A stretch of 64,000 nt of DNA from Eubacterium sp. (GTDB lineage Bacteria > Bacillota > Clostridia > Oscillospirales > Acutalibacteraceae): the NCBI GenBank assembly GCA_022511225.1, contig JAFLRZ010000005.1, forward strand, positions 1-64,000, given 5' to 3'. Positions 6,772-11,879 of this stretch are shown here, in pieces (positions within the stretch are counted from its first letter, which is position 1; the number at the start of each line of letters is the position of its first letter). A program made the translations under genes and the position numbers. The notes beneath the pieces are model-generated. The model ran no database searches, was not told the origin of the DNA, and saw nothing but the letters and a program-made list of their open reading frames with translations.

Positions 6772-7848
6772 ATGACAGATAATAAAATTTACATTTGCCT
6801 TGCCGACGGCAGTATATACGAGGGCAAAAGCTTTGGTGCCAAGGGCGAAGTTATAGGCGAGCTTGTATTTACCACGGGTATGGGCGGTTATATTGAAACA
6901 CTTACCGATCCAAGCTATTTCGGTCAGATTGTTATGCAGACATTCCCTCTTATCGGCAACTACGGCTTTATCAATGAGGATATGGAAAGCGAAAAAAGCG
7001 CCGTTTCAGCATACATCGTGAGAGAATACTGCACCGAGCCGTCTAACTTCAGGTGCGACATCACACTTGATGAATATCTCAAGGCTAACGGCATAATCGG
7101 TGTGTATGATATAGACACAAGAGAGCTTACTAAAAAAATCAGAGAATACGGCGTAATGAATGCTGTTATTACAGATAATCCCGACAGCGTTGATATGCAG
7201 AAGGTTAAGGAATACAGGATTGAAAAGGCAGTAGAAAGCGTATCGTGCAAAAGACCTTCTATGAATCCTGCCGATGAGCATAAATACAACGTCGTTCTTA
7301 TCGACTACGGCACGAAGAAGAATATCGTTCGTGAGCTACAGAAAAGAGGCTGTAACGTGGCAGTAGTTCCGTTTGACACGAAGGCAGAGGATATTTTATC
7401 TCTTGACCCTGACGGTATTATGCTTTCAAACGGACCGGGAGACCCTGAGGATAATATTACTGCTATCAGGGAGCTTTCAAAGCTTGTTGGCAAAAAGCCT
7501 ATTTTTGCAATCTGCCTTGGTCATCAGCTTCTTGCGCTTTCACAGGGCGGTAAGACAAAGAAGCTTAAATACGGTCACAGAGGTGTAAACCAGCCTGTTA
7601 AAAATCTTGAAACAGGCAGAACGTTTATATCCTCACAAAACCACGGCTACGCTGTTATCAACGAAAGCGTTGAGGCTGTAGGCGGTAAAATAAGCTACGT
7701 AAACGCAAATGACGGCACCTGCGAGGGTGTTGACTACGAGGACAAGCAGGCTTTTTCCGTGCAGTTTCATCCCGAAGCCTGCTCAGGTCCGCACGATACA
7801 AGATTTATATTTGATAAATTCATTTCAATGATGGGAGGTAATGATTAA
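6772..7848 (+). CDS. carA: Carbamoyl-phosphate synthase small (glutaminase) subunit
   Basis: CarA hydrolyses glutamine and passes ammonia to CarB. It has 358 residues: an N-terminal CarA-specific domain with the TGMGGYIETLTDPSY region, then a class I glutamine amidotransferase domain with Cys248 in CLGHQLLALS and His333/Glu335 in FHPEACSGP. The stop shares a base with the carB start (TAATG). Placement in the arg operon suggests at least one arginine-controlled carAB pair; a separate pyrimidine copy cannot be judged here. Confidence 0.95.
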   Translation: MTDNKIYICLADGSIYEGKSFGAKGEVIGELVFTTGMGGYIETLTDPSYFGQIVMQTFPLIGNYGFINEDMESEKSAVSAYIVREYCTEPSNFRCDITLDEYLKANGIIGVYDIDTRELTKKIREYGVMNAVITDNPDSVDMQKVKEYRIEKAVESVSCKRPSMNPADEHKYNVVLIDYGTKKNIVRELQKRGCNVAVVPFDTKAEDILSLDPDGIMLSNGPGDPEDNITAIRELSKLVGKKPIFAICLGHQLLALSQGGKTKKLKYGHRGVNQPVKNLETGRTFISSQNHGYAVINESVEAVGGKISYVNANDGTCEGVDYEDKQAFSVQFHPEACSGPHDTRFIFDKFISMMGGND

Positions 7849-10800: not shown

Positions 10801-11879
10801 ATGATAATTCGATAATGGAGCTTGTAGAGTCGGGTAAGCTTGATTATATTGTATATACAGGCAAGAGCGACAAGAAGTCGATTGCTGATTATATTAAGCT
10901 TCACAACAGGGCAAACCAGCTCGGTATTGCTACTATCACCTCGCTTGATACTGCAAATGCGATTGCAGACATCATTGCTTCTCGCTATAAGCAGACAAAT
11001 ACGGAGCTTATCGACATCAATGATATGAGAAAAGAAAAGGGCGTACTCAAGTTCTCTAAAATGGAGGGCACGGGTGACGACTATATCTTCTTTAACAATC
11101 AATGCGGTATTATCACGTGCCCTGAAAGCTTTGCTATTGAGTTTACCGACAGGCATCACGGTATCGGCGGTGACGGAATAGTGCTTATTGAAAAAAGCAA
11201 CATTGCTGATGCGAAAATGCGTATATTCAATATTGACGGCTCTGAGGGTAAAATGGCAGGCAACTCAATACGCTGTGTCGGTAAGTTCCTCTATGACAAT
11301 GATATTGTTAAAAAGACTGAGATGAAAATACTTACGGCATCGGGTATTAAGGAGCTTTCACTGTTTACGAGAAACGGCAGAGTTTCCTCGGCGGCAGTCA
11401 ATATGGGCAAGGCTGAGCTAAACCCCGAAAAAATACCTGTAAGCATTGATGCTGAGAAAATAATCGATTACAATGCTGAAATAGGCGGCAAGGAGTACAA
11501 CATAAATTGCTGTGCAATCGGCAATCCGCACTGCGTAGTTTTTGTTGACAACGTTGACAAAATTGATTTAGCCGAAGTCGGTCCTCTGTTTGAGAATGCA
11601 CCGATTTTCCCCGAAAGAATTAATACAGAATTTGTAAGAGTTGTTAACTCCACGACTCTTAAGATGAGAGTATGGGAGCGTGGCAACGGCGAAACGCAGG
11701 CTTGCGGTACGGGAGCGTGTGCAGCTGTAATTGCGGCTGTAGAGAACGGTTATTGCGACAAAGGCGAAAACGTAACCGTAAAGGTCAAGGGCGGCGACCT
11801 TATTGTTAATTACACAGACGAAAAGGTTACGCTTGTTGGGGATTGTAATTTGGTGTACAAGGGTGAGATAGAGTATTAA
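7848..11879 (+). CDS. carB: Fusion of carbamoyl-phosphate synthase large subunit and diaminopimelate epimerase (CarB-DapF)
   Basis: This is one uninterrupted ORF of 1343 codons. Residues 1 to about 1062 are a complete CarB: two ATP-grasp halves (starting [20 protein letters not shown] and [20 protein letters not shown]) and a C-terminal methylglyoxal-synthase-like allosteric domain. Residues about 1066-1343 are a complete DapF, which interconverts LL- and meso-diaminopimelate for lysine and cell wall. Both DapF catalytic cysteines are visible, Cys1143 in [10 protein letters not shown] and Cys1286 in ACGTGACAA, with GTGDDYIF at the start and [10 protein letters not shown]. The join has only a few residues (MRKEKG). 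CarB is normally about 1060-1080 residues and DapF about 270-280, so neither half is shortened. Internal ATG codons near the join have only weak ribosome sites, so a separately translated DapF is possible but unproven. Confidence 0.93.
   Translation: [1343 protein letters not shown]

Follow-up and report, generated by a model that had tools for sequence, protein, structure and literature searches.

A carbamoyl-phosphate synthase large subunit ending in a diaminopimelate epimerase-like tail without the first catalytic cysteine in Oscillospirales bacteria

The window analysed here is a stretch of 64,000 nucleotides of Eubacterium sp. (family Acutalibacteraceae, order Oscillospirales; assembly GCA_022511225.1, contig JAFLRZ010000005.1, positions 1 to 64,000), and it carries a gene, called carB::dapF below, in which the large subunit of carbamoyl-phosphate synthase (CPS), CarB, is followed by a domain of the diaminopimelate (DAP) epimerase family, DapF. 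Both parts are encoded by a single uninterrupted frame on the forward strand (7848-11879, 1343 codons); residues 4-1041 match the NCBIfam profile of the CPS large subunit, TIGR01369, with 1412.9 bits (cut-off 1027), residues 1068-1342 match the DapF profile TIGR00652 over its whole length with 260.7 bits (cut-off 114.65), and the Pfam assignments agree for both parts. The single-frame fusion proposed in the first-pass annotation, which was made from the letters of the window, is thus borne out. The parts of the gene and the residues discussed below are the following, with epimerase residues numbered after E. coli DapF (NP_418254.2), whose catalytic cysteines stand at 73 and 217.

7848..10988, forward strand: CarB part, residues 1-1047, from TIGR01369/NF003671 and alignment to E. 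coli CarB
10989..11048, forward strand: linker, residues 1048-1067, partly conserved across the fusion family
11049..11876, forward strand: DapF-like part, residues 1068-1343, from TIGR00652 and matches to DapF entries of the PDB (best 2otn, E 3e-65)
11076..11078, forward strand: Asp1077, at the position of E. coli DapF Asn11, from alignment
11256..11258, forward strand: Ala1137 (codon GCA), at the position of E. coli Cys73, the first catalytic cysteine, from alignment and codon reading
11274..11276, forward strand: Cys1143, at the position of E. coli Cys79, from alignment and codon reading
11703..11705, forward strand: Cys1286, equivalent to E. coli Cys217, the second catalytic cysteine, from alignment

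The junction between the two parts contains neither a stop nor a frameshift, and no Shine-Dalgarno-like internal start was found at it in the window, so that neither a broken frame nor a separate start for a free DapF, both named in advance as grounds against the fusion, was encountered there. The same type of frame is present in 199 other loci, namely in 120 of 120 loci from related genomes and 79 of 80 named loci (all fetched because they match both parts; the one named locus without a full frame is cut by a contig end), which rules out an assembly or frameshift artefact. Within the linker, T53 and E54 (residues 1052 and 1053) are invariant in an alignment of 28 fusions.

The first-pass annotation had also assigned both catalytic cysteines, at 1143 and 1286, to the DapF-like part. 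The second assignment holds, since Cys1286 is the equivalent of Cys217, whereas Cys1143 aligns with Cys79 and the position of Cys73 is occupied by Ala1137, leaving Cys1286 as the only member of the catalytic pair. The rest of the site is largely intact: the window tail is identical to E. coli DapF at positions 64, 75, 157, 159, 190, 208 and 209, and seven of the eight ligand-contact residues of Corynebacterium glutamicum DapF (N15, N74, N85, N159, N194, E212, R213 and T223) have equivalents in it, the exception being Asp in place of Asn11; these correspondences to E. coli numbers are inferred, except that of T223 with S219, which is given in an excerpt of PMC5296763. According to the same excerpt, replacement of either catalytic cysteine, or of any one of the eight contact residues, by alanine leaves the C. 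glutamicum enzyme with hardly any activity, and the C83A mutant, whose position is taken here to correspond to Cys73, is almost inactive (PMC5296763). The window tail is therefore probably no longer an LL-DAP epimerase, as far as can be judged from its residues, and a bifunctional reading of the window protein was rejected on account of the loss of Cys73.

The loss is not peculiar to the window. Among 200 fused tails (the window, the 120 genome loci and 79 named loci) Cys73 is absent from 123, position 73 being Cys in 77, Ala in 83, Gly in 30, Ser in 5, Tyr in 3, Phe in 1 and Thr in 1, while Cys217 is kept in 195, replaced by Ser in 4 and missing in 1. The other site residues are nearly fixed (95-100%) in the 122 tabled tails without Cys73, a set that excludes the Thr73 locus L300: His159 is present in 122, Asn75 in 121, Asn190 in 120, Asn64, Glu208 and Arg209 in 118 each, Asn157 in 117 and Gly74 in 116, so one catalytic base is gone and the pocket is largely kept. 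Asp11, which the window has, occurs in 30 of these 122 domains and in none of the 77 that keep Cys73. Free DapF proteins, by contrast, show Cys73, Cys217 and Asn11 in all 57 distinct sequences; of the 67 loci, chosen by high score, from which these were drawn, 60 were retained after filtering on length and motif without regard to the cysteines.

A search for the same fusion in related genomes, as suggested at first pass, found it in at least 134 of 398 genomes of the family (rows spanning both parts, with query residues 925-1343) and in at least 139 of 394 genomes of the order, spread over 20 of 26 family codes among those listed, which speaks against chance and against a local accident. Thirteen of the 134 family fusions were left unfetched (G348, G154, G386, G333, G280, G312, G286, G105, G174, G376, G288, G306 and G353), and contig-edge or split cases such as G026 and G245 lie outside the 134. 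In the best 80 of 591 loci from named genomes, 79 have the domain in one frame with carB; these loci are mostly metagenome assemblies titled Ruminococcaceae, Oscillospiraceae or Clostridia, with further records from Neglectibacter sp. X58 and Ruminococcus sp. FC2018 and others titled Saccharofermentans, Christensenella, Peptococcaceae and Treponema. Some loci depart from the usual frame. In L324 (5243-9312, genome G245) carB (1050 codons) and dapF lie in two overlapping frames, through a split gene or a sequencing error, and the fetched members of its genus g48 (G048, G167 and G395) have the fusion. Fused frames of at least 1500 codons occur in L233 and in G441, G473, G497 and G523; that of L233 also matches part of CarA, either as a possible carA-carB-dapF chain or as a mere upstream open frame.

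In the window, carB::dapF is the seventh and last gene of a tight run that begins with argC, and the genes preceding it, with profile scores given against the respective cut-offs, are as follows.

1614..2555, forward strand: argC, N-acetyl-gamma-glutamyl-phosphate reductase, TIGR01851, 362.6 bits against 229.85
2558..3817, forward strand: argJ, NF003802, 447.9 bits against 351
3832..4692, forward strand: argB, acetylglutamate kinase, TIGR00761, 253.5 bits against 151.3
4699..5859, forward strand: argD, acetylornithine transaminase, TIGR00707, 449.7 bits against 410.05
5856..6758, forward strand: argF, ornithine carbamoyltransferase, TIGR00658, 423.9 bits against 280.85
6772..7848, forward strand: carA, CPS small subunit, TIGR01368, 452.4 bits against 307.35

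The free-standing carB and dapF that were to be looked for are both present in the window genome (2.2 Mb in 48 contigs). Contig C1 carries a second, unfused carA and carB, both identified by profile, beside pyrimidine-type genes whose names were read from the frames, and contig C34 carries a free DapF of 280 residues, with both cysteines and Asn11, directly before dapL (LL-DAP aminotransferase). Control of the arg operon by RNA was considered and set aside, since no Rfam family lies near it and the lysine riboswitch found in one of seven relatives' loci is more than 5 kb from the fusion. Elsewhere in the window, all on the reverse strand, lie a frame for a Bmp/PnrA-type substrate-binding protein that also contains divergent InlB B-repeats (PF18998; 13119-15020), a 738-residue frame without a Pfam match at E 0.001 (40332-42548) and a T-box leader (59140-59345) upstream of a phenylalanyl-tRNA synthetase alpha-type gene (58052-59104).

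A tree of the CarB part was built with FastTree from 117 of 121 rows, four short rows without Cys73 being left out, and rooted at its midpoint, so that its sides and the direction of change are themselves inferred. One side, here called the arg side, comprises 55 rows, among them the window, and Cys73 is lost in all 55; the other side comprises 62 rows, 54 with Cys73 and eight without, the eight being scattered with respect to one another. The fewest changes that account for the state of Cys73 on this tree are nine, and the pattern suggests that Cys73 was lost once, long ago, on the arg side. Gene context differs in the same sense (in these counts the gene context of the window was added manually): dapL lies directly downstream in 34 of 50 evaluable loci with Cys73 and in 0 of 54 without it, while argB, argD or argF lies upstream in 40 of 53 loci without Cys73 and in 0 of 48 with it. 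The typical order on the other side is carA, carB::dapF, dapL; the window has neither the two cysteines nor the downstream dapL of this type, and both its place in the tree and its lost Cys73 put it with the arg side. Two loci with Cys73 lie near other arg genes, L159 with argJ upstream and L149 with argJ-argB-argD downstream. In L149 (genome G106) the two-cysteine fusion is thus followed by arginine genes and not by dapL, and a free DapF and a DAP dehydrogenase (Ddh) are encoded elsewhere in the genome.

In a tree of the DapF part, the 25 sampled arg-side rows fall into a single starred group that lies within other DapFs, both fused and free, with low support and with free and fused rows intermixed (six changes). 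A single fusion event is the simplest reading, with later splits or more than one fusion being possible. Unfused runs of a pyr-type carB followed by dapF and dapL exist as well (L017 1-3050 and L018 2-3055, and by position G001, G313, G261 and G177), which places carB and dapF side by side in more than one lineage. A scan of the junction in 194 of the 200 rows found a Shine-Dalgarno sequence of 5 bases with a start in 13 loci (3 of 117 without Cys73 and 10 of 77 with it, the frequency at control positions being 1.3%), and some fusions of the two-cysteine side might thus additionally produce free DapF.

The first-pass annotation had proposed that the fusion ties DAP supply to the control of the arginine operon. 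This idea finds no support here, because the fused domain of the window lacks one of the two epimerase bases while its genome has an intact free DapF before dapL, and because two-cysteine fusions mostly precede dapL and were never found with argB, argD or argF upstream.

The genomes also differ in their other means of making meso-DAP. Another DapF is present in 34 of the 67 genomes whose fusion lacks Cys73, Ddh (PF16654) in 44, and at least one of the two in 60, against 31 of the 54 genomes that keep Cys73 (Fisher p 9e-5, kinship not corrected for); the remaining 23 of the 54 have neither, so that no route other than the fused DapF was found in them, and dapL was present in all 13 of these 23 that were searched for it. 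With dapL searched in all 67 genomes without Cys73, dapL occurs together with a free DapF in 33, Ddh without dapL or free DapF in 26, a free DapF and Ddh without dapL in one, and dapL alone in six; one genome (G316) has none of these. The eight losses outside the arg side are accompanied by Ddh in eight of eight genomes, against 23 of the 54 with Cys73 (Fisher p 0.0047). In these counts the free DapF of G034, found in two pieces, was taken as present, the Ddh of G138 is truncated where its contig ends, and the Ddh matches of G044, G172, G053 and G095 are in two pieces.

Although one base has been lost, purifying selection on the tail persists. For the window together with six relatives, seven sequences that all have Ala73, the ratio of nonsynonymous to synonymous substitution rates (dN/dS) of the fused DapF is 0.07-0.20 (11 of 21 pairs computable with unsaturated synonymous sites), compared with 0.03-0.08 for CarB (18 of 21 pairs) and 0.06-0.17 for the intact free DapF in five genomes of the same group (4 of 10 pairs).

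At positions taken to be active-site residues of both ATP-grasp halves, the window CarB is identical to the E. coli enzyme at R129, R169, E215, Q285, E299, N301, R303, E676, R715, E761, Q829, E841, N843 and R845, and has Lys and Met at the positions of H754 and L756, where the pyr-type CarB of the same genome has Lys and Ile. In the allosteric MGS domain, K954 and R1030 presumably belong to the nucleotide site for UMP or IMP. An excerpt of PMC6245113 names Lys993 and Thr977 of that site, and Thr1042, which contacts ornithine, in E. coli CPS. The nucleotide-site residues are eroded on the arg side, taken here as the rows without Cys73 minus the eight later losses (K954 in 15, K993 in 16 and R1030 in 0 of 51 rows), compared with 59, 60 and 60 of 60 rows on the other side, and Thr977 and Thr1042 are present in 51 of 51 arg-side rows. 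A general role as an arginine-specific CPS was rejected, since 47 of 73 genomes (35 without Cys73 and 12 with it) gave no CPS large subunit other than the fusion at E 1e-150; the window genome has two.

These observations may be brought together as follows. The joining of CarB to DapF would date from early in the history of this order. On one side of the tree the tail would have stayed mostly a two-cysteine protein, in many genomes the only DAP epimerase found; on the arg side, where the fused gene usually follows arginine genes, meso-DAP would come from a free DapF beside dapL or from Ddh, and the tail, devoid of Cys73, would have been retained under purifying selection with its second cysteine and most ligand-contact residues. 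The arg-side tail would then be a non-epimerase module, either a pocket closing on a DAP-like or other amino-acid ligand, or a dimerising scaffold next to the MGS domain, or both. Such a conversion of the epimerase tail into a part of the synthase that binds a ligand or serves as a scaffold seems to us an even proposition, judged from sequence comparison. The earlier suggestion that DapF was placed beside the allosteric domain of CarB is right as to position, and a regulatory or structural role leads among the readings, in the altered form of a one-cysteine DapF with most of its ligand site. A tail that binds without epimerising and acts on the synthase is favoured because the pocket is kept without the full catalytic pair. 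There is precedent for such a signalling use, since DapF closes strongly on its ligand (excerpt of PMC5296763) and a mutant of E. coli DapF that has alanine in place of the two cysteines is inactive and still binds and stimulates RppH (excerpt of PMC4227774). More specifically, and more tentatively, the one-cysteine pocket could be a built-in sensor of CPS, closing without turnover on DAP, or on lysine, ornithine or arginine, and thereby setting the activity of the synthase.

Several observations weigh against the proposed module. Tests on paired lineages of the tree, of Cys73 loss against other routes and against dapL, gave no significant result (median p 1 and 0.25), since too few pairs differ, and the tie of Cys73 loss with other routes and with dapL rests mostly on one deep split. 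The ratio of tail to CarB divergence is 1.46-2.16 on the arg side against 1.27-1.66 on the other side (CarB distances below 0.34), a slight relaxation and not decay. Both cysteines are lost in four fused domains, L174, L184 and L187 of genus g133 (Tyr/Ser) and L243 (Ala/Ser), and the three g133 genomes diverge more, in a relic-like manner. In the case of the window protein itself, erosion of the nucleotide site carries little weight as an argument, since K993 and T977 are kept in it; K954 is replaced by Arg and R1030 by His. Finally, the six genomes without Cys73 that have dapL alone all belong to genus g47 (G047, G166, G305, G244, G352 and G394, drafts of 91-99% completeness; loci L089, L095, L096, L099, L102, L112 and L325-L328): they have dapL and dapB, no Ddh match, and as their sole DapF the fused copy with Ala73 and Asp11. 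A hidden epimerase adjoining dapL was sought there by eye in two loci and none was seen. In g47, either the one-cysteine tail still epimerises, perhaps by means of Asp11, or another, unknown route exists.

Among the alternatives, the strongest, though unlikely, is that the tail is a passive scaffold, CPS owing its oligomeric state or stability to dimerisation of the DapF part and no ligand being involved; DapF is indeed dimeric (excerpts of PMC4227774 and PMC5296763) and the fold and parts of the linker are conserved, but a pure scaffold would not need the near-invariant Cys217, H159, N190, E208 and R209. Somewhat less probable is that the tail remains a slow or rewired DAP epimerase, with Cys1286 serving one face and, for example, Asp1077 in place of Asn11 the other. 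The g47 genomes, including the two loci inspected by eye, and the restriction of Asp11 to tails without Cys73 speak for it; on the other side stand the incompleteness of those drafts, the intact DapF beside dapL in the window genome, the 46 of 67 genome rows without Cys73 that lack Asp11 as well, and the near inactivity of C. glutamicum C83A and N15A, the latter taken here as the Asn11 equivalent (excerpt of PMC5296763). A neutral relic, a dead tail still to be lost, would fit the slightly faster divergence, the four domains without either cysteine and the broken frame of L109, possibly a sequencing error; it is rendered more doubtful still by dN/dS values far below 1 and similar to those of intact free DapF, by a loss common to all 55 arg-side rows in which Ala, Gly and Ser dominate, and by the near-fixation of the other site residues. 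The slimmest chance is given to a new one-base enzyme, whose single cysteine would abstract a proton and bring about elimination or exchange on a different amino acid: in an excerpt of PMC8142540, threonine in place of a cysteine turns a related cofactor-independent epimerase into a dehydratase, and glutamate racemases in which serine replaces one of the cysteines perform eliminations, but these precedents bear Thr or Ser where the fused tails mostly have Ala or Gly, and no candidate substrate or neighbouring gene presents itself.

The CarB and DapF families are well known, and so is a defective enzyme domain within a CPS polypeptide, as in yeast URA2. The window tail resembles DapF (TIGR00652; NP_418254.2) in its whole-length match and in N64, N75, N157, N190, E208, R209 and Cys217, and differs from it in Ala for Cys73, in Asp for Asn11 and in being the tail of CarB; the front part resembles the E. 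coli-type CPS large subunit (TIGR01369) in both ATP-grasp halves, with most checked residues, and in the adjoining carA, and differs from it in the extra C-terminal DapF and the partly changed nucleotide-effector residues of the MGS domain. In yeast URA2 and fungal CAD the CPS polypeptide likewise bears a catalytically defective, dihydroorotase-like domain (known here from a title cited as reference 45 and from the 5NNL table row in PMC12524618), but that domain comes from pyrimidine synthesis itself, whereas DapF comes from lysine and cell-wall synthesis and the fusion of the window has a sister group with an intact tail. The E. coli DapF/RppH pair shares a non-catalytic role of DapF that survives the loss of both cysteines (excerpt of PMC4227774), but there DapF is a separate protein with another partner, and the loss was engineered and not natural. 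The bifunctional DapF/glutamate racemase family (NF038284) offers a second role for the DapF fold, although the window matches it weakly (103.2 bits against a cut-off of 350). No report of a CarB-DapF fusion or of a natural single-cysteine loss in DapF was found among the papers listed by searches of open-licence literature, as judged by titles and the beginnings of abstracts; database entries for the fusion lay outside these searches.

With a score above the curated DapF cut-off, the fusion may be labelled a DAP epimerase in automatic annotation, which is probably wrong wherever Cys73 is lost, and it occurs in about a third of the genomes sampled from this order of gut-type Clostridia. The two sides of the tree, with the same fusion in the same host group, amount to a natural experiment on how an enzyme tail may become a non-enzymatic part: the cysteine pair is intact where the fusion is the sole route to meso-DAP found and mostly lost where another exists. 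The g47 genomes provide a sharp test, as either a one-cysteine DapF can epimerise or there is an unknown route to meso-DAP. Sensing of an amino acid by the tail, if it occurs, would represent a new way of controlling carbamoyl phosphate, and if the tail is a sensor of the kind considered above, the levels of cell-wall and lysine precursors would gate the synthesis of arginine and pyrimidines across a bacterial order.

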